From contig CAIOZA010000147.1 of assembly GCA_903862655.1 (NCBI GenBank), positions 1-39,113 on the forward strand: DNA of 39,113 nt, in the 5' to 3' direction. Origin of the DNA: an uncultured Ignavibacteria bacterium (GTDB lineage Bacteria; Bacteroidota; Ignavibacteria; Kapaibacteriales; UBA2268). A program made the translations under genes and the position numbers. Every line of letters starts with the position of its first letter. Position 1 is the first letter of the stretch. This document shows positions 5,497 through 32,402 of this stretch, in pieces. Under the pieces are notes generated by a model that made no database searches, had not been told where the DNA came from, and worked only from the letters and a program-made list of their open reading frames with translations.

Positions 5497-6369
5497 ATGG
5501 ATTATAAAATGAAAAAAATATTTGCTATTTTGTTCTTTATTGTCATAACAGTTATCATTGTTCAAGCTCAGGTAGTTAAATATTATCCTGCAAAAGATGG
5601 ATTAGATTATATTTTATCGGAATATAAATCTGTTATTGGAGACACAGCCCAGTTATATTCAATTGTAAGCCATAGATGGAATGAGTTCGATTTTTACAAT
5701 AATAAGGGATTAAGCCGAAATTGGGGTTATACATTTTGTACAAACGATAGTTGTTTTGAATTCATTGTTACGAATATTGACAATGTGAATTCCTATATAA
5801 TTAAAAGAAATTTAAATTACTTTGATGATTACGATGACTTCCCAATTCCGGTAGACTCAATAAATTGTTATAGCGACTCACTCCAATATTTAAGATGTGA
5901 TATTTATAATACTGTATGCTCTGAATATAGTTTATATAATCTTGGTTATAGGAATAATTCAACTTGGATATTTATTTTTATTAGCGGTTTTGACACCACA
6001 AACAACAGACCTATACACGAAGTAAGTGATCAACATGTTTATGTTTTTAACAATACAGGAGATTGCTTTGTCGGCAATATGGATGTTAAAGATAATCCTA
6101 AATTGAAAAATAATTCTAATATAATTCTTTCTCCCAATCCTTCTCACGATTTCATTGAAATTTCTGTAGGGACACGGCGTGCCGTGTCCGAACAAAGCGA
6201 TGTTAGGATATATAATGTGTTTGGGCAGAGCGTGTCCACCCCTTACCCCACCCCAGCCCTCCCCGCTAGCAGGGAGGGAGTAAGAATCGATGTCTCCGGC
6301 TTGGCTCCGGGTATTTATTTCGTGAGGATTGGGGATAGAGTTCGGAAGTTTCTGAAAATTAATAATTAA
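5497..6369 (+). CDS. Secreted protein with T9SS type A sorting domain, body of unknown function
   Basis: 290 residues. A signal peptide is clear (KKIFAILFFIVITVIIVQAQ). The start may be the ATG at 5497 or the one at 5509, which gives MKKIFAILFF directly. Residues about 25-200 are rich in Asp, Asn, Ser and Tyr and match no family I recognise. From about residue 207 comes a T9SS sorting domain: SPNPSHDFIEISVG, DVRIYNVFGQ, RIDVSGLAPGIYFVRIGD, ending in RKFLKINN. Two palindromic repeats are read in frame inside it, encoding TRRAVSEQ after EISVG and a proline-rich stretch after FGQ. The protein should be exported by Sec and then attached to or released from the outer surface by T9SS. Confidence 0.85.
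   Translation: MDYKMKKIFAILFFIVITVIIVQAQVVKYYPAKDGLDYILSEYKSVIGDTAQLYSIVSHRWNEFDFYNNKGLSRNWGYTFCTNDSCFEFIVTNIDNVNSYIIKRNLNYFDDYDDFPIPVDSINCYSDSLQYLRCDIYNTVCSEYSLYNLGYRNNSTWIFIFISGFDTTNNRPIHEVSDQHVYVFNNTGDCFVGNMDVKDNPKLKNNSNIILSPNPSHDFIEISVGTRRAVSEQSDVRIYNVFGQSVSTPYPTPALPASREGVRIDVSGLAPGIYFVRIGDRVRKFLKINN
6170..6189. repeat. In-frame palindrome inside T9SS sorting domain, site 1
   Basis: Arms GGACACGGC and GCCGTGTCC flank a 2-base centre. The element lies immediately after the codons for EISVG and is followed by AACAAAGCGATGTT, which resumes the sorting domain. At the same point the genes at 15119 and 31161 carry different palindromes. Confidence 0.85.
6257..6278. repeat. In-frame GC-rich palindrome inside T9SS sorting domain, site 2
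   Basis: CCCTCCC (6257-6263) pairs with GGGAGGG (6272-6278), with GCTAGC at the centre and one mismatch. It sits in a C-rich run (about 6229-6281) between the codons for FGQ and RIDVSG. It is the second recurrent insertion position in this sorting-domain lineage. Confidence 0.75.
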
Positions 6370-6910: not shown

Positions 6911-6939
6911 ATAATTCAATTTCATTGAAATTTCCGTAG

Positions 6940-6959
6940 GGGCGAACGGCCGTTCGCCC
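6940..6959. repeat. 20-bp perfect palindrome, sorting-domain site 1
   Basis: GGGCGAACGGCCGTTCGCCC is a perfect palindrome within GTAGG...TTACA context. The same 20 bases with the same flanks occur in the sorting domain of the gene at 15119-17215. Confidence 0.9.
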
Positions 6960-7010
6960 TTACAAAGCGAGATCGAAATCTTCAATGTTTATGGTCAAAC
7001 TGTATTGTCT

Positions 7011-7038
7011 GTAGTGGTAATTCATGAATTGCCCCTAC
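7011..7038. repeat. Palindrome at sorting-domain site 2 of fragment 1
   Basis: GTAG ... CTAC ends enclose an AATTCATGAATT core, giving an imperfect 28-base palindrome between the codons for the VYGQ and RVDVSG motifs. Its outer GTAG/CCCCTAC ends match those of the GGGCGAAC-type elements. Confidence 0.75.
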
Positions 7039-7128
7039 GAGTGGATGTCTCCGGCTTAGCTCCAGGCATGTATTTTGTGAGGATGGGGGAGACAGTTCAA
7101 AAGTTCATAAAGTTGTAAAGATATATTC

Positions 7129-7198
7129 AGCTACGGAGTAGCGACCTGTTTGTAGAAAACGGAAAATAAAATGAACAAGAGCTCCATCGGAGCGACCT
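7129..7198. repeat. Two degenerate copies of an AGCNNCGGAG..AGCGACCT repeat
   Basis: CAGCTACGGAGTAGCGACCT followed by GTTTGTAGAAAAC at 7129-7160, and GAGCTCCATCGGAGCGACCT at 7179-7198, share the core AGCT..(A)CGGAG...AGCGACCT. They separate the two orphan sorting-domain fragments. From memory, very similar short repeats (GGAGCGACCTGTTTGTAGAAAA) are common in FCB-group genomes. The second copy runs directly into the second fragment, which starts truncated. Confidence 0.65.
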
Positions 7199-7202
7199 AA
7201 AA

Positions 7203-7364
7203 ACATCAGAGATAATGAATGTATTTGGTCAAATCCTGTCCACCCCTGTCTGCTCCGCAGCCACCCCCACCAGCGGGGGACAGAGAATCGATGTCTCCGG
7301 CTTGGCTCCGGGCATGTATTTTGTGAGGATTGGAGATAAAGTCGAGAAGTTTATAAAGTTGTGA
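7203..7364 (+). pseudogene. Orphan T9SS sorting-domain fragment 2, truncated
   Basis: The frame reads SEIMNVFGQILSTPVC, then RIDVSGLAPGMYFVRIGDKV and EKFIKL to the TGA at 7362-7364. It lacks the PNP...FIEISVG half of the domain and begins right after a repeat copy. A proline-rich insert with local self-complementarity (GTCCACCCC.., GGGGGACAG) occupies site 2. The last 75 bases are almost identical to those of fragment 1 and of the full genes at 5497 and 31161. It is not a functional gene. Confidence 0.83.
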
Positions 7365-9520: not shown

Positions 9521-10393
9521 GTGAAAAAAATTATTATACTATTTCTTATAGCTGCAATAGCAAGTACTGTAGCTTATTCACAGACTCCTTATAAAGCTAA
9601 GGAAGGTATTAGCACAACATCAATAGCAGCTAAGAAAGTAGCCTCCGATGCCAAACTGATGATAGTTGGAACAATAGCCGGACAGGTGCCGGCTATACCG
9701 ATAGTATTAACGTTTGACGAGTCTAAAGGTACATGTACGGCATGGATCTATGCTTTTAGATCAGATTCAAAGGATACAATGCTTTACTATATCGCGACAA
9801 AGTTTCCTATCATTGGATTAACAGCTGTAGGAATTCCATTGAATACATCTGCCCTCAAATTACCATTTAAACCTGATTCATCACTAGATGGCAGGACAAT
9901 GATTGATAGTGATATTATGATTCAGGCAGTTCGAAATACTCAGAAATATATCGACTTCAAAGCAAAGAACGCCGATGCAGCACTCAAGATGACAGGACTT
10001 GCTGTTCAGCCAAATAACAATCAAACAGTCTGGGGTGTTACAATTGCGGCTACTGCAGGAGAGCTACAGTGTATTATTAATGCTGAGACAAGCGCAGCTA
10101 CTTGTTTTGATTTTTCCTCTGTCGATGAATTAACATCATTAAAATTAACTGTCACACCTAATCCGGCATCTGAAACAGCGGTGCTGACAGTTCCTATTGC
10201 TTATAGCTATTCGAATGCTACAATAGCCATTTTCGATTCTCAGGGAAGAATCGTTAAAGCTTTCGGTTCTCTGGAATTGAATTCTACTGGTCAGACTGCC
10301 TTCCAGGTTGATAACCTAAGTGCCGGAGTCTACTATCTCATGTTCAGCAATGGAACAGACACAGACGGCTGTTCGTTTGTTGTTGTGAAATAG
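9521..10393 (+). CDS. Secreted protein with T9SS type A sorting domain, body of unknown function
   Basis: 290 residues from a GTG start, with GAGG 6 bases upstream. Signal peptide MKKIIILFLIAAIASTVAYS with probable cleavage before QTPY. The body (about 25-205) is rich in Ala, Thr and Ile and has no family I recognise; it contains repeated hydrophobic strands and a pair of Cys near residues 188 and 199. The C-terminal 85 residues form a T9SS sorting domain (VTPNPASETAVLTV, IAIFDSQGRIV, VDNLSAGVYYLMF, SFVVVK). This domain belongs to a different sequence lineage from the DVSGLAPG type in this window and has no palindromic insertions. It is divergently oriented from the helicase. Confidence 0.85.
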   Translation: MKKIIILFLIAAIASTVAYSQTPYKAKEGISTTSIAAKKVASDAKLMIVGTIAGQVPAIPIVLTFDESKGTCTAWIYAFRSDSKDTMLYYIATKFPIIGLTAVGIPLNTSALKLPFKPDSSLDGRTMIDSDIMIQAVRNTQKYIDFKAKNADAALKMTGLAVQPNNNQTVWGVTIAATAGELQCIINAETSAATCFDFSSVDELTSLKLTVTPNPASETAVLTVPIAYSYSNATIAIFDSQGRIVKAFGSLELNSTGQTAFQVDNLSAGVYYLMFSNGTDTDGCSFVVVK

Positions 10394-10528
10394 AAAATGA
10401 GCTTTTGAATTAGGGCTAAAAACCTTAAACAATTCACATCTGCTTAGCCAATGCGGAGGAGTGTTGCAGAGCTGACTTGGGTGGACACATTTTGTCCATA
10501 TAAATTGGAAATTCTAATGTCGAAATCG

Positions 10529-10562
10529 ACATCAACCGTAGGGTTAACCCTACGGTTGATGT
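10529..10562. repeat. 34-bp perfect palindrome between the T9SS gene and the ATPase gene
   Basis: ACATCAACCGTAGGGTT (10529-10545) is followed without a gap by its exact reverse complement to 10562. It lies between convergent genes (stops at 10393 and 10618) and could work as a transcription barrier. There is no T-run, and the GTAGGG/CCCTAC core matches the style of the other dispersed palindromes here. A weaker hairpin, GGACA...TGTCC, lies nearby within 10474-10498. Nothing else is seen in 10394-10617. Confidence 0.8.
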
Positions 10563-10617
10563 TCGAAATATCTATTTAATCAGCGGCTGTGATTGGGGAT
10601 ATATATAGATTTAAAAC

Positions 10618-15118: not shown

Positions 15119-17215
15119 CTATAATTTCACAAACTTACCGACTCTATCCCCAATCCTCACAAAATACATACCCGGAGGCAAACCTGATACATCAATTCTA
15201 ACTTTTTCCCCTCCTTTCCAAGGAGGGGTGTCACGCAGTGACGGGGTGGTCTGGATTTCTCCTAGAACATCAAATATCCTCACATCGCTTTGTAAGGGCG
15301 AACGGCCGTTCGCCCCTACAGAGATTTCTATGAAATCGGAGGTGGGATTGGGGGAAATGCTGAATATATCATTAGAATTTATTACTTCATCTGTATTTGT
15401 AATATTTTGAATATCGATCTTCTCTATCTGAGTTATTGAGAAATATGAAATATCATCATTTTTCATTTCTATTAAAAGTGAATCCGTTTCGGCTGGTTCG
15501 GTTTGAGCATTCAATTTCAAAATCCAGATATCTCTGAGTCCATGGTTATTTAAAACAGCACCATCATTAGAACCCGATCTGCCTGATAGAACAAAACCAC
15601 CGTCTTGAGTTTGAACAATTCCATTAGCATAATCAGATTTACTGCCGCCATAAGATTTCTGCCAAATAATTTCACCATTTAAGCTCAATTTAGCAATCCA
15701 ATAATCATTAGAAACAGTATTATTGATATGACCTGTCATGTCGCCACCGTTGGATTGTGTAGAGCCCAAAATAACATATCCATCCTGAACAACAAGTAGT
15801 TGACAGAAATTATCATCTTCCCCAAACCCAATGATTGGTTTCTGCCATAGCATTAACCCGCTTGAATCCAATTTAACAATCCAGTAGCTGTTCATCCCAA
15901 TAGAGCCAATAAGATCTCCATCGATAGAATTTGAATTGCCTACAATAATGCATCCTTTATCCTTAGTAATCTCTACGCCTAGTGCATAATCATTACCACT
16001 TCCGCCCAAAGAATTTGTCCAAACAATTTTACCTATACTATCTAATTTTACAACCCAAATATCATTATTGCCATGACTTTTGATCACATCACCATTGTCA
16101 GATAATGAATTGCCTACTACAATAAATCCATGGTCTTCTGTCTCACGAATTGAAGTTGGTTTATCTTCATCACTGCCACCTAGTGCTTTCTGCCAAACTA
16201 TATTACATACAGAATCTAACTTTACAACCCAGAAATCCCAGGTTCCATTCTTTTTAATCCCCTTTAGATCCCCATCCGTTGAACAAGTAACACCTAACAG
16301 AATATATCCTTTATCTGAAGTTGAAATGAACGAAGTTAAATATTCTGAGTATGAGCCACCATATGACCTTTGCCATTCAATACCACCATTCTTGTTAAGT
16401 TTAATTATCCAAATATCATCAGGATGATTGCCCGGAGCCGGATTTTTTGGTGAAGATCCGGCAACTATAGCACCAGCATCGCTTGTAGGTATAATCTGAA
16501 GCCCTAAATTGCCATTTTCGCCATACACTATCTCCCAAAGCAGGTAACCGGTGTCACTGTATTTTGAAATAAAGTTTTCATTCTTGTATGATCTGTTGTA
16601 TTGATGTCCACCAATGATATAACAATTATCTAATGTCTTTTGTACATTTGTATAATCAAGGTCAATATCTTTGTTCTGAGGTTCTTGCCACTCTATTACA
16701 CCATTCGAATTTATTTTAACAATCCAAAGCTTACCGGTTCCTGTATTCCCAATAACATCGCCATCAATCGAACTTGTTTCACCAAATATCATATAACCGC
16801 CATCATCTGTTTGTTGAAGCGATATAAGAAAGTCCTCTTTACTGCCACCAAATGAATTCTGCCATTCTATCGATGGAGCTTTTTGAAGATGATCGAATTT
16901 TATGCTGTCAATTTTTGATAAGTTTAGATACCAAGCATAACCCATTTCGATGACAGTCATCATTCTGTCTTTTTCAAAAAAAGTATTAAACCGGATTGAA
17001 TCAATATTACATGAATGATATGTATATTTGAAACTATCCTGACAGTAGGCTTGCATCAAACATTCTTCTGTCTTATTGAGAAAAGCAAACTTTCGGATAT
17101 CACTCGAATTATAATCGCGGGTTGTGCCGTCAGACAAATAAATTCTTAGGACTTGCTCTGCATTAGCAGATGATACAACAAACAAAAGTGTGATAACCAA
17201 TAATAATGTTTTCAT
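15119..17215 (-). CDS. Secreted eight-repeat propeller-like protein with T9SS sorting domain
   Basis: 698 residues. Signal peptide MKTLLLVITLLFVVSSANA. Residues about 130-600 hold eight repeats of 50-60 residues built on GGS..D, T.DGGY...G.S.S.DGD, WIVKL.S.G.I.WQ, as expected for an eight-bladed beta-propeller. A Gly-rich loop and Trp end each repeat. The C-terminal 85 residues are a T9SS sorting domain of the DVSGLPPG..FVRIGDRVGKFVKL type. It carries two in-frame repeat insertions, encoding ANGRSPLQ after EISVG and a longer stretch TTPSLRDTPPWKGGEK before RIDVSG. It is probably displayed on or released from the cell surface; ligand unknown. Confidence 0.87.
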   Translation of the reverse strand: MKTLLLVITLLFVVSSANAEQVLRIYLSDGTTRDYNSSDIRKFAFLNKTEECLMQAYCQDSFKYTYHSCNIDSIRFNTFFEKDRMMTVIEMGYAWYLNLSKIDSIKFDHLQKAPSIEWQNSFGGSKEDFLISLQQTDDGGYMIFGETSSIDGDVIGNTGTGKLWIVKINSNGVIEWQEPQNKDIDLDYTNVQKTLDNCYIIGGHQYNRSYKNENFISKYSDTGYLLWEIVYGENGNLGLQIIPTSDAGAIVAGSSPKNPAPGNHPDDIWIIKLNKNGGIEWQRSYGGSYSEYLTSFISTSDKGYILLGVTCSTDGDLKGIKKNGTWDFWVVKLDSVCNIVWQKALGGSDEDKPTSIRETEDHGFIVVGNSLSDNGDVIKSHGNNDIWVVKLDSIGKIVWTNSLGGSGNDYALGVEITKDKGCIIVGNSNSIDGDLIGSIGMNSYWIVKLDSSGLMLWQKPIIGFGEDDNFCQLLVVQDGYVILGSTQSNGGDMTGHINNTVSNDYWIAKLSLNGEIIWQKSYGGSKSDYANGIVQTQDGGFVLSGRSGSNDGAVLNNHGLRDIWILKLNAQTEPAETDSLLIEMKNDDISYFSITQIEKIDIQNITNTDEVINSNDIFSISPNPTSDFIEISVGANGRSPLQSDVRIFDVLGEIQTTPSLRDTPPWKGGEKVRIDVSGLPPGMYFVRIGDRVGKFVKL
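15208..15250. repeat. CCCCTCC..GGAGGGG repeat plus GTCACGCAGTGAC, sorting-domain site 2
   Basis: Two adjacent hairpins: CCCCTCCTT/AAGGAGGGG (15208-15228) and GTCAC/GTGAC around GCA (about 15230-15242), ending in GGGGTGGT. Read on the minus strand it lies between the codons of the first half of the sorting domain and RIDVSG. From memory, the same composite is a frequent dispersed repeat in FCB-group genomes. Confidence 0.8.
15296..15315. repeat. 20-bp perfect palindrome, sorting-domain site 1
   Basis: GGGCGAACGGCCGTTCGCCC again, with CTACA/TTACA flanks identical to the copy at 6940-6959. On the minus strand it follows the EISVG codons of the gene at 15119-17215. Confidence 0.9.
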
Positions 17216-19643: not shown

Positions 19644-22181
19644 CTATTTCATAATAACAATCTTATCTACTATTGCATTTCCATGGGAACTAACAATGCA
19701 AAGATATACACCCGGCTGCAAGTGACTTAGATTAAGATTAAAGTTATGTGCTCCTTCAGGAATAAATTGATCGATAATATCAGATCTTAATGTACCCAAC
19801 ATATCCATAATTTTTACTTGAACCATTCCACTTTGTTGTGCATAATACTTAAGCATTACGTTACCATTAGTAGGATTAGGAGTTATATTCAAATTTTCCT
19901 TAACAACAGAAGCATAAGGAACATCAGAAGGAAGTTTTAATATTGAAAAATTCTCGCTGGTTGCCAATAAATTATTGTCTTTCATGCTTTTTACGACAAT
20001 CGAATAATCTGATCCCTCAGCTAGAGTTTTGGGAACTTTCCATCCATATGCGTTTGTTAAACTTAGTAAAATATTTTTAATAACTAATACCTGTGTGCCA
20101 TTCTTTAACAATGTAATCGACACAGAATCAGAGATATTTGTTTTCCATCTGATCACTGCAATTGAATCAGAATAATACTTATCGGAGATAACTGGCTTCG
20201 TAATTGTTATTGATGGAGCTCCTGTTGAAAAACTAAAGATTGGTGACCAATCACTTGAGATATCACTATAATTTGTCTTAACTCTCCAATAGTAGGTCTT
20301 GTTTGATTCAAGATCCAGAGAGACGCTTGTTTCTATTGTTGTAGGTTTTAAAGTATCCTGATCAATAAAAGAAGAATCAGGAGCAATTTGATAAACAAAA
20401 TTAGCGTATCGTCCCGTAGGTGTCCAAAGAAGATTTACTTTTTGGTTATTTATCAATAATGCATTGTTACTAGGAGACATAAGAACGGGAGCATTAATAA
20501 CTGTCGATTCTCTTCTAAATCCAATGATGTATTCACCAGTGTCAGATGCCATTGCAACTAACATATTATCATTGGGATCAAATGTAGTTGGAATATCGAT
20601 AAATATGCCGTTGCCTTCAGTTTTTCTGAAAAACACTTTCATGCTGTCGTATTGATATAATGGTGGCAGAGTAGAAACATCAAATCTGATTTCACCACTA
20701 AATGAATAAATATTCTCTGTATGAACCGTAAACCTTCCGGGTACAATTACAGGTGCCTCACCAACAAATCTGGGGTTCATAGTTGCACACTCATACTTCT
20801 TCACTTGGCAAAAATTGTACATAAATGCATTCATTGTTTCTAAAAATATAACAGTACCAGTTTGCGATTTTTTGCTATTGAATTTATAAGTGTTACCTTC
20901 CAAAAGGTCTCTCATTATCACATCGCCAACTGGCTGACAAGCGGGTAGCTGGTATTTAAGACCTCTATAACTGTAATAATATGGCGGTAGAGATAATTCA
21001 TAAACAATCTTTTTATCAGGAGTAACTTCTGTTACTGTTCTGAACGGACCAGATAGAATCATTCCCCAGTTAATCAAAGTGTTTCCGTTGGGCAAACGTT
21101 GAGCCGAGCCCATAGCAAAAGTAGCAATATCACCAAGTGGATGCTTGAATTCCCAAGCTAAATTCGCTGTTCTATTTTTTTCATCCACAGAATATTCAAC
21201 AGCACGGGAGAACGCCGGATCTTTACCGTACCCATCATCAAAAAATAGGAAATTACCATTAGGAAGTCGCTTTATGTCATGCTGTAAACGAAAATAAAGT
21301 GGTGCAAACTCCTCATGCTCACCTTTGATTGCAAAATTACTTTGATTGCCTCCAAATCGCCAGATGATTTTGCCGGAAGTCATGTCTATTTTTACAATTT
21401 CACAGGTGGTTGCAAATGAAACTAACAGGTTCCCATCTGTATCCAGATGATATGCATTTGCATGAACATGTTCGAACGTTGCATTCAGAAAATTGTCTAA
21501 GGTTTGAGTTATTGGAATATGGTCTAAACTTCTCCACTGGAAGATACAATTTTTGTTTGCATCGAGCTCCTGGATTACAGAACCTATGACTGTCGCATTA
21601 GGGTTGCCTCCGGTTACAATCTTACTCATATCGACAGGTACAACTTCATACGAAAGCATCATATAATTGCCATTTGGTAACATTCTAAATTCATGCGTAT
21701 CCGACAAATATCCATTCTTACACTGAACACTGTCAATAAGATTGAATTTCGAATCCAAAATATAATCAATAACTTTTGCATTTTGGACTTTGAAAGGACC
21801 TACCTGATGAACATCTCCTACTCCAATAGCACTTGCATAAGTGAACAATCCATTAGGTGCCATTTTAAAATCAATTCCACCCAATATAGGTTTCTGATAA
21901 AAAAGTGGTTTAGCGACACTGTCGAGTACTAATAAATAAGTAGGTGTGTTGGGTGCTATGTTGAATGTTGTTAGGAATAAATAACCCGGTGATGGATTGA
22001 CCAGTGAATCAACCTTTATTACAGGGAAATCAACGGGAAGATCTCCAAGAACTTCTGGAATATTAACATACATCAGTTCTTCAACTGTTGATAAAGGTCT
22101 GCTATCAATTACTGATACAGGTTGAGAAAATGATAATTGAGTTATGATTACCAGTGTTAGTAGAGTAAATAGAATTTTCAT
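19644..22181 (-). CDS. T9SS-sorted arylsulfate sulfotransferase (ASST family)
   Basis: 845 residues. Signal peptide MKILFTLLTLVIITQLSFS. Residues about 25-440 match the Arylsulfotran family beta-propeller: LPNGNYMML, FEHVHANAYHLDTDGNLLVS, GKIIWRFGG, FRLQHDIKRLPNGNFLFFDDG and RLPNGNTLINWG, with conserved His in HVHAN and QHD. ASST enzymes move sulfate from one phenolic sulfate ester to another phenol without PAPS. Then come a fibronectin III-like domain (about 565-655), a second Ig-like domain and a T9SS sorting domain (ITPNPTNGNVMLKYY to IVDKIVIMK) of the lineage without palindromes. It should therefore act outside the outer membrane, unlike periplasmic E. coli-type AssT. It is the last gene of the sulfur block, 82 bases after pstB-like. 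Confidence 0.87.
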   Translation of the reverse strand: MKILFTLLTLVIITQLSFSQPVSVIDSRPLSTVEELMYVNIPEVLGDLPVDFPVIKVDSLVNPSPGYLFLTTFNIAPNTPTYLLVLDSVAKPLFYQKPILGGIDFKMAPNGLFTYASAIGVGDVHQVGPFKVQNAKVIDYILDSKFNLIDSVQCKNGYLSDTHEFRMLPNGNYMMLSYEVVPVDMSKIVTGGNPNATVIGSVIQELDANKNCIFQWRSLDHIPITQTLDNFLNATFEHVHANAYHLDTDGNLLVSFATTCEIVKIDMTSGKIIWRFGGNQSNFAIKGEHEEFAPLYFRLQHDIKRLPNGNFLFFDDGYGKDPAFSRAVEYSVDEKNRTANLAWEFKHPLGDIATFAMGSAQRLPNGNTLINWGMILSGPFRTVTEVTPDKKIVYELSLPPYYYSYRGLKYQLPACQPVGDVIMRDLLEGNTYKFNSKKSQTGTVIFLETMNAFMYNFCQVKKYECATMNPRFVGEAPVIVPGRFTVHTENIYSFSGEIRFDVSTLPPLYQYDSMKVFFRKTEGNGIFIDIPTTFDPNDNMLVAMASDTGEYIIGFRRESTVINAPVLMSPSNNALLINNQKVNLLWTPTGRYANFVYQIAPDSSFIDQDTLKPTTIETSVSLDLESNKTYYWRVKTNYSDISSDWSPIFSFSTGAPSITITKPVISDKYYSDSIAVIRWKTNISDSVSITLLKNGTQVLVIKNILLSLTNAYGWKVPKTLAEGSDYSIVVKSMKDNNLLATSENFSILKLPSDVPYASVVKENLNITPNPTNGNVMLKYYAQQSGMVQVKIMDMLGTLRSDIIDQFIPEGAHNFNLNLSHLQPGVYLCIVSSHGNAIVDKIVIMK

Positions 22182-31160: not shown

Positions 31161-32402
31161 CTATAACTTCACAAATTTGCTGACTTTATCCCCAATCCTC
31201 ACAAAATACAAACCCGGAGCCAAGCCGGAGACATCGATTTGTATTGTAGGGGCGGGTTCAAAACCCGCCCTAATTGATACCAGGGTTTGTCCAAATATAT
31301 CATATATCTTCACATCGCCTGTAAGGGCGGGTTCAGAACCCGCCCCTACGGATATTTCAATGAAATCCGTTGCCGGATTGGGAAATATTAATTGTGTTTC
31401 ATCATTATTCGTGTAATTCTCCTCTATTCCATTTATCCCCTGCAAGCCGTCTTCGTTGTAAACTACAAGGTTTTCGCACCTTAAAACTTCATTATAGTTC
31501 ATAAACCATTTATTGTTATGGTTGTCAACTTTAATGTTGTACGCAGGACCATATACAACTTTAAAATCTTTACCGTCAAACCTCGCCAATGAAGTGTTTG
31601 TTCCTACCCAAAGATTGTTCTTTTTATCCCTAACAATTTCACCAAAAGATTTATAATAGTAATCAGTATTTGAAGTGTCAATATAGCTAAATTTATCATC
31701 TTTTAATATGATTATGCGTTTACTTGATGTAAAATACTTTGTACCGGCAGAATCAATACAAATTGACCAGACTGCGGAATTATAAGGTGTTTTAAAAATA
31801 GTTTGCCAACTGTTGCCGTCATATTTAACAACACCTGCTTCTGTACTGAACCAATAAGAACCATCGTCATCCTGAGCCATTGTGTATATAGCATTATTCA
31901 GCAATCCTGAATTAGTATCATTGAATATACGAGAATTTAATCCATCGAACCTGATGATGCCACTATTGATATTACTAACCCGAAAAACAATCCACAAATT
32001 ATTCTCTTTATCCACAAATATCGGAAATAGATATTTTGCTAATGGAAGTGTAGAATTCTCATGATTAAATAACTCCCATGTTTTATCATCGTACTTAATC
32101 AAACCACGAGAAGAACCCATCCATTTATTGTTTTTATTATCAACAATTATCTTGTTTAAAGAATAATCAGGAATATCTGAATTGTTAGTATCTAAAAATT
32201 GCCATGTGTATGTATCAGTTCTAAAAATCCCACCATATACTAGAGAAATCCAAATTTGATTAGTTGAATCAACAGCATAATAATAAATATTTCTTTGTGG
32301 CAAAGGTGAATTATGATAATTCCAGGAATTTATATTGGCTGCGATGGAATTATAATTAACAATAAAAATTAATATTATTATTATAAATTTTGATTTTTTC
32401 AT
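31161..32402 (-). CDS. Secreted two-component-regulator-propeller repeat protein with T9SS sorting domain
   Basis: 413 residues. Signal peptide KKSKFIIIILIFIVNYNSIAA. Residues about 25-320 hold repeats of the reg_prop type: IWISLVYGGIFRTD, NKWMGSSRGLIKYDDKTWELF, NLWIVFRVSNINSGIIRFDG, SYWFSTEAGVVKYDGNSWQ, NLWVGTNTSLARFDGKDF. Such blades form beta-propellers, usually in sensor kinases; here there is no kinase and the protein is exported. The C-terminal 80 residues are a T9SS sorting domain of the DVSGLAPG..FVRIGDKVSKFVKL type with palindromic insertions at both usual positions (encoding AGSEPALTG, and IRAGFEPAPTIQ). Transcription ends at the hairpin near 31020. Confidence 0.88.
   Translation of the reverse strand: MKKSKFIIIILIFIVNYNSIAANINSWNYHNSPLPQRNIYYYAVDSTNQIWISLVYGGIFRTDTYTWQFLDTNNSDIPDYSLNKIIVDNKNNKWMGSSRGLIKYDDKTWELFNHENSTLPLAKYLFPIFVDKENNLWIVFRVSNINSGIIRFDGLNSRIFNDTNSGLLNNAIYTMAQDDDGSYWFSTEAGVVKYDGNSWQTIFKTPYNSAVWSICIDSAGTKYFTSSKRIIILKDDKFSYIDTSNTDYYYKSFGEIVRDKKNNLWVGTNTSLARFDGKDFKVVYGPAYNIKVDNHNNKWFMNYNEVLRCENLVVYNEDGLQGINGIEENYTNNDETQLIFPNPATDFIEISVGAGSEPALTGDVKIYDIFGQTLVSIRAGFEPAPTIQIDVSGLAPGLYFVRIGDKVSKFVKL
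31250..31270. repeat. GGGCGGGTT palindrome, sorting-domain site 2
   Basis: GGGCGGGTT and AACCCGCCC arms surround a 3-base centre, with GTAGG on the left. Read on the minus strand, it is in frame just before the IDVSGLAPG codons of the gene at 31161-32402. Confidence 0.9.
31325..31345. repeat. GGGCGGGTTC palindrome, sorting-domain site 1
   Basis: GGGCGGGTTC and GAACCCGCCC arms around one base, with GTAA/CCTAC flanks. It lies after the EISVG codons on the minus strand. It is nearly identical to the copy 55 bases away, so the two could recombine and delete the DNA between them. Confidence 0.9.

Follow-up and report, generated by a model that had tools for sequence, protein, structure and literature searches.

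Palindromes of many families occupy two fixed loops of the T9SS sorting domain in an uncultured Ignavibacteria bacterium and its relatives

Introduction

Rickettsia palindromic elements (RPEs) belong to one element family and are found at varied positions in many different, unrelated proteins. Like the inserts reported here, they consist of palindromic DNA lying in frame within protein genes (PMC3733652). Repetitive palindromes of the GTAG and CGTC REP types are, according to the same source, mainly intergenic, and their intragenic copies occur in varied proteins (PMC3733652). Two Xanthomonas recB genes are described there as carrying different REPs at about the same site (PMC3733652), which is a direct small-scale precedent for different REPs at one site. 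RAYT transposase genes are bordered by REPs, and cleavage takes place at a CT under guidance of the GTAG (PMC2817692, PMC8266576). The mechanism of REP mobility is described as still poorly understood (PMC8266576).

Here we report palindromic inserts in T9SS type A sorting domains. The region analyzed, referred to as the window, has a length of 39,113 nucleotides and is the whole of contig C147 in a 4.07-Mb draft genome of 148 contigs from a relative of Kapabacteria. The system shares with GTAG-type REPs and RAYTs (Nunvar 2010, PMC2817692; Di Nocera 2013, PMC3733652) palindromes of 20-40 bp, the GTAG head, intergenic and paired copies, and a RAYT-like gene accompanied by palindromes. It differs from them in location: the known elements are, as far as these sources describe them, mainly intergenic and their intragenic copies mostly sit at variable sites in unrelated proteins, whereas here two fixed loops are occupied and 34 of 37 places with the pattern GTAGGGGC-N12-GCCCCTAC are in sorting domains. 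The initial annotation had likened the inserts to RPEs. This likeness is one in spirit; roughly half of the inserts are more closely related to GTAG-type REPs and the RAYT transposases that go with them. RPEs as defined above are one family in many proteins at varied sites, whereas here one domain is affected at two fixed positions, and the elements, about 17-43 bp long, belong to many families. Among the papers listed in searches of mainly open-access literature, none dealt with palindromes inside T9SS sorting domains. Intragenic REPs are known; that REP-like elements turn over within a bacterial family at two constant loops of a single secretion signal was not found in print and is to that extent new.

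Insert-bearing sorting domains of the window

Gene 5497-6369 carries both in-frame palindromes that had been noticed initially, GGACACGGC-GT-GCCGTGTCC at 6170-6189 and CCCTCCCCGCTAGCAGGGAGGG at 6257-6278. The insertion point of the first one had been placed after EISVG and has to be moved to a position after EIS. Copies of this element elsewhere begin and end at the same bases and have unrelated flanks, so that its start is the GTAG, four bases earlier (6166), and the residues VG of EISVG are thus encoded by the element itself. The two points of interruption are called slot 1 and slot 2 in the following, and the features of the window are listed in Table 1.

All three window proteins with intact insert-bearing domains exceed the cut-offs of both TIGR04183 and PF18962. 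That homologous domains of the window are broken at the same two points by other palindromes, as claimed initially, is seen in genes 15119-17215 and 31161-32402. Domain and palindrome scans of the window detected no such insert in genes 9521-10393 and 19644-22181, whose sorting domains belong to another subtype. The decayed domains at 6915-7361 and 10465-10611 are not genes; their reading frame is broken, yet their palindromes are nearly perfect.

Table 1. Sorting domains of the window and the palindromic inserts they carry.
Feature	Position	Strand	Characteristics
Secreted-protein gene, 290 aa	5497-6369	+	T9SS type A sorting domain at residues 212-285; TIGR04183 32.4 bits (cut-off 23), PF18962 40.8 bits (cut-off 27)
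Slot-1 insert, family b, GTAG-headed 24-bp palindrome	6166-6189	+	Codons VGTRRAVS; identical copies with unrelated flanks in L273, L274, L275 and L276
Slot-2 element, family A	6229-6282	+	Palindrome core 6257-6278; encodes SVSTPYPTPALPASREGV; similar copies beyond sorting domains at C12:52825 and C50:69569
Decayed sorting domain	6915-7115	+	Family a palindrome in slot 1 (6936-6963), family E palindrome in slot 2 (7011-7038)
Second decayed sorting domain	7200-7361	+	Slot-2 peptide TPVCSAATPTSGGQ retained
Decayed sorting domain	10465-10611	-	Slot 1 filled by a perfect palindrome (10529-10562, encoding NRRVNPTVDV) that by eye resembles the slot-1 palindrome of G024 and other relatives
Secreted-protein gene, 698 aa	15119-17215	-	Intact sorting domain; family a palindrome in slot 1 (15292-15319), family B palindrome in slot 2 (15208-15228)
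Secreted-protein gene, 413 aa	31161-32402	-	Intact sorting domain; family c palindrome in slot 1 (31321-31349), family C palindrome in slot 2 (31250-31270)

Two fixed insertion points in the genome and its relatives

A genome-wide search for the domain gave 123 matches at E <=10, 78 of them below 1e-6, and the best 75 of the 123 were analyzed. The parsed set comprised 121 domains, 57 from the genome of the window and 64 from relatives; 18 of the 75 matches and eight rows of relatives were unparsed and left out, some of them decayed and several apparently intact. Slot borders are misplaced in a few of the parsed rows (C86:9044, L193). The group of relatives includes CROMO_A_116 (titled Desulfobulbaceae), SulCav (Chloroherpeton), RX1 ('bacterium') and ChocPot (Bacteroidetes/Chlorobi), which were assigned to it by us.

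The 121 parsed domains contained 127 palindromes with a score of at least 11, of which 66 were located in slot 1, 59 in slot 2 and two elsewhere in the domain. Shuffling of the sequences yielded on average 1.0 palindromes for the 57 domains of this genome, compared to 69 observed, and 0.8 for the 64 domains of the relatives, compared to 57 observed. For the control group of other Bacteroidota (16 domains parsed out of 45 loci) the observed number was one, in slot 2, against a shuffle mean of 0.1; this group is not quite clean, because an origin from a genome of the same family is indicated for at least one member (L213). In homologues outside the clade the loops at these two points are mostly shorter. 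A stricter parse of 52 copies of this genome showed both slots filled in 24, one slot in 19 and neither in nine (score >=11). With 125 of 127 palindromes in the two slots, the scatter along the domain that had been named beforehand as the contrary outcome is absent, and the alternative of one conserved peptide in the relatives does not apply either, as they often have other palindromes there. The presence of palindromes at two fixed loops is thereby confirmed as real and beyond chance, and the observation is stronger than first stated. The genomes are draft assemblies and the named relatives are MAGs, which might raise the question of an assembly or binning artefact; the pattern, however, recurs across the assemblies of different projects and the frames are open through the inserts, so that this explanation has next to no probability.

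Predicted structure of the domain

In the predicted structure of the domain (pLDDT 77.8) the strands are well predicted and both inserts are of low confidence. The best structural matches were T9SS CTDs, with 8glk at the top (Z 9.2, rmsd 2.2, 71 aligned) followed by 8qb1 (8.9), 5m11 (8.2) and 8glj (8.1). The model thus has the beta-sandwich fold of solved CTDs, with which the sequence search agrees; a Foldseek search gave no match to the predicted domain at E <=0.001. Profile and predicted fold are the same as in the T9SS type A sorting domain (TIGR04183, PF18962), from which the domain differs in that two loops are lengthened by palindromic DNA; its role in secretion is predicted. The model bears out the proposed location of the inserts in loops, as both map to loops of low confidence that connect well-predicted strands. 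Judged by the order of the strands, slot 1 is the loop between strands 2 and 3 and slot 2 the loop between strands 4 and 5. In the sequence the two slots flank the 3-4 loop, and judging from strand direction both would be positioned at the edge of the sandwich opposite this loop. Relevance for T9SS function is reported for the 3-4 loop and the C-terminus, the other loops being highly variable in length, and the CTD of mirolase has a long 2-3 loop (PMC11285876).

Palindrome families and GTAG heads

Our own clustering grouped 126 slot palindromes into 24 families, which often differ between genera; the clustering is loose, and its cluster 15 merges two unlike sequences. Eight families nominally occur in both slots, three of which rest on misparsed rows (C86:9044, L193) or loose clustering (L118), so that five were counted as clearly present in both slots, in different copies or genomes. 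The palindrome GTAGGGGCAATTCATGAATTGCCCCTAC, for instance, is located in slot 2 in this genome and, slightly changed, in GWF2_33_9, and in slot 1 in G009, and GTAGGGGTTCAAAATCTTGAACCCCTAC occupies slot 2 in this genome and has a near copy in slot 1 of G035. Family a of slot 1 is combined with five classified slot-2 families in this genome. The insert at C24:69886 looks like a mosaic of two families. Several slot peptides of relatives (L131, L141, L144, L147, L159), such as VISNEVRNP, VILSEAKNL, TFLSVQDGQTGMSDP and SFLRMQES, are presumably translations of other widespread bacterial repeats.

The elements of families b, a and c have 24, 28 and 29 bp, respectively, which is within the 20-40 bp of REPs. 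A GTAG at a 5' end was found in seven of the 24 clusters, which account for 69 of the 126 slot palindromes (families a, b, c/C, E, F and g as well as the GTAGAGAC families of relatives). Families d, e, f, A, B, D, G and others lack this head and were not filed as GTAG-type REPs. As GTAG heads are limited to these seven families and 69 palindromes, mobility by RAYTs is not indicated for the remaining ones. GTAG[GA]G strings in the slot region share the same codon phase in 69 of 77 cases; of the eight off-phase strings, only that at C121:46601 heads a GTAG-type element, whereas seven stem from elements of other kinds.

Distribution of palindromes in the genome

The background frequency was determined in a sample of 439 kb, which consisted of the window and 20 stretches fixed beforehand, non-randomly, on large contigs, with simple open frames taken as genes. 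Domain tails (3.6 kb) contained 14 palindromes with a score of at least 12 and a G+C content of at least 45%, compared to 12 in non-coding DNA (45.8 kb) and seven in other coding DNA (389.7 kb). Among these seven 'coding' palindromes, one belongs to a missed sorting domain (C15:68122) and three are no more than about 310 bases away from a decayed domain (C6:69619), while two of the 12 non-coding ones sit in the decayed domains of the window.

The families differ in their dispersal. The pattern GTAGGGGC-N12-GCCCCTAC, which covers families a, E and F, coincides with sorting-domain matches at the 34 of 37 genome places mentioned above, and the pattern of families A and D at 23 of 27. Family b was found at 14 genome places with sharp common ends, five in sorting domains and nine outside, the latter including a match with three mismatches at C24:39358. 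An even dispersal of every family is thus ruled out for the a/E/F and A/D patterns, and family b is mostly outside the domains. Palindromes of families b and c occur beyond the domains and are paired in three places; there (L275, L277, L279), one palindrome of each family lie about 20-30 bp apart in a BIME-like arrangement.

Families a and E are almost restricted to domains in the genome of the window. In G005, which represents a genus of the same family, the same pattern occurs at 34 places, and no match to this sorting domain was obtained there at E 1e-6. Fifteen of the G005 loci were examined and the element was visible in ten: six are in no frame of at least 80 codons, and four overlap or border frames of 101-198 codons that are possibly spurious. 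In the other five loci the element was below the threshold, and further stretches agree with a mostly non-frame placement. Dispersed copies beyond the gene family are therefore documented for family b in this genome and for families a and E in G005.

RAYT-like transposase genes

Two genes for Y1 transposases were identified in this genome, P0001 (in L098) and P0002 (in L170). Their best family is the REP-associated tyrosine transposase NF047646, but with 63.3 and 54.1 bits, respectively, they do not reach its curated cut-off of 80 bits and are called RAYT-like only. The HUH motif is present in both (PNHLH in P0001, PNHIH in P0002), and P0002 is broken by a stop. Known RAYT genes are located between two inverted REPs, whereas P0001 has a family c palindrome on its 5' side only and P0002 is flanked by unlike palindromes, of family c on the 5' side and of a different kind on the 3' side. 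Both genes also harbor related, partly degenerate palindromes in frame after the HUH motif. These in-frame palindromes (genes at L098 1462-2006 and L170 1515-2110) are kin to those on the 5' side, L304 and L320 of relatives likewise have a palindrome at this point, and L315 and L317 show similar peptides there. The point after the HUH motif in the transposase itself is possibly a third fixed insertion point.

A search of relatives yielded 18 readable RAYT-like genes from 30 loci, one of them being P0001 again. Palindromes are located within the frame in four of the 18, in L304 and L320 in the loop that follows the HUH motif, and in the flanks in ten. The flanking palindromes of L317 are of the GGGCACGGCATGCCGTGCCC kind, which also occurs in a slot of G009, and those of L300 and L319 are headed by GTAGAGAC and differ in their interiors. 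The bases preceding GTAG in the copies of family b vary (CT, CC, AC, TT, AT or GT), and the CT cleavage site of the studied RAYTs is therefore not consistently present.

Age of the inserts relative to the domains

Silent-site divergence (pS) was compared for the ten families with at least four copies of equal length. In all ten, pS of the insert (0.05-0.25) was below that of the adjacent core (0.38-0.88) and the C-terminal segment (0.43-0.80) of the same copies, with non-overlapping bootstrap intervals. For the 23 copies of family a, the silent-site difference was 0.094 per site in the element and 0.45 to 0.75 in the flanking strands. Differences per codon in this family dropped from 0.98 just 5' of the insert to 0.09 in the first insert codon and reached 0.70 and 1.03 in the two codons that end the slot, so that divergence is higher, in a step, beyond either end of the element. 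Family e behaves alike, with a less sharp step; in family C of slot 2 the step is not clean, as the low stretch begins within the slot and divergence is also low in the downstream flank. A pairwise table of upstream and downstream identity was too noisy, in part due to shortened flanks, and was excluded. The elements appear much younger than the sorting-domain tails that carry them, and because their silent divergence is low next to diverged flanks they seem to have arrived in domains that had already diverged. This also supports the 'repeated' insertion proposed in the initial annotation.

These data bear on the possibility that the inserts are ancient and were inherited through duplication and shuffling of sorting-domain cassettes, with two loops that merely tolerate them. 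The domain is indeed multi-copy, and similar passengers occur with different domains (C95:43670, C36:11421). Moreover, unrelated genes share sequence after the stop codon (C139:49750, C47:2975, C24:103927 and C95:45113 of G000), as if the domain and its 3' flank moved or were converted together. On the weakly supported core tree, the slot labels require at least 16 changes for slot 1 and 24 for slot 2, compared to means of 21.6 and 32.0 after shuffling; as these numbers are lower than the shuffled ones, some inheritance of slot inserts also takes place. However, silent divergence of the inserts several-fold below that of the flanks in all ten families, the step at the element ends in family a and the presence of other families in the same slots of relatives make inheritance unlikely as the explanation, and plain domain duplication as the whole cause is disfavored by the silent divergence. 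Homologous conversion would be expected to drag the flanks along.

Low silent divergence could also be read as constraint, if the palindromes were retained because their hairpins serve the DNA or mRNA of these genes, for instance by slowing translation or protecting the message. Pairing is strong, and both slots carry hairpins in 24 of 52 copies. Yet all 24 pair changes among the 23 copies of family a are one-sided and none is compensatory, and in nine of the 52 copies, all from the same genome, neither slot holds a palindrome that reaches score 11. The absence of compensatory change speaks against hairpin conservation, and a hairpin function is very unlikely to account for the inserts. Constraint at the DNA level may contribute to the low silent divergence; strong constraint is opposed by the one-sided changes.

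The amino acid constraint is relaxed in the insert of family a, with a pN/pS of 0.65 compared to 0.13-0.28 around it. Such a value might be expected from selection for variable surface peptides, by which the inserts would diversify exposed loops of secreted proteins. The ratio nevertheless stays below 1. Removal of the sorting domain after export is described for Porphyromonas gingivalis, so that the loops would not remain on the cell; we regard selection for variable surface peptides as highly improbable.

Discussion

The sequence comparisons argue for REP-like mobile palindromes that have probably been captured recurrently, in frame, in two tolerant loops of the T9SS sorting domain. This recurrent capture is supported by the fixed positions, the many unrelated families, the differences between genera, the copies outside of domains, the RAYT-like genes and the younger inserts, as analyzed in one genome of the species of the window. 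Short mobile palindromes would arrive again and again in the 2-3 and the 4-5 loop. Roughly half of the inserts are of the GTAG-headed REP kind, whose spread is attributed to RAYT (HUH single-strand) transposases, and RAYTs would accordingly be candidates for moving them; the rest are palindromes of other kinds. The loops may be targeted, or they may accept inserts since they would be located away from the edge needed by the translocon, and the many copies of the domain would offer many landing places. Copying of whole domains adds to the spread and is insufficient by itself.

A more specific version is conceivable but doubtful. In it, the loops would serve as sockets in which RAYT-type enzymes insert or swap REPs in frame, a new element replacing an old one at the common GTAG head, and the secretion signal would be where a mobile element of this genome mainly resides. 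Swapping in place would fit the nearly single codon phase of the GTAG-headed inserts (all but one) and the mosaic insert at C24:69886.

With dozens of paralogous domains per genome, two positions and many families, recurrent capture in the sorting domain would represent a natural replicated experiment on the entry of mobile DNA into proteins, in which the ages of the inserts can be read against the host domain. It would also mark loops of the T9SS signal that seem to tolerate foreign peptides, and it provides a testable case for REP mobility.
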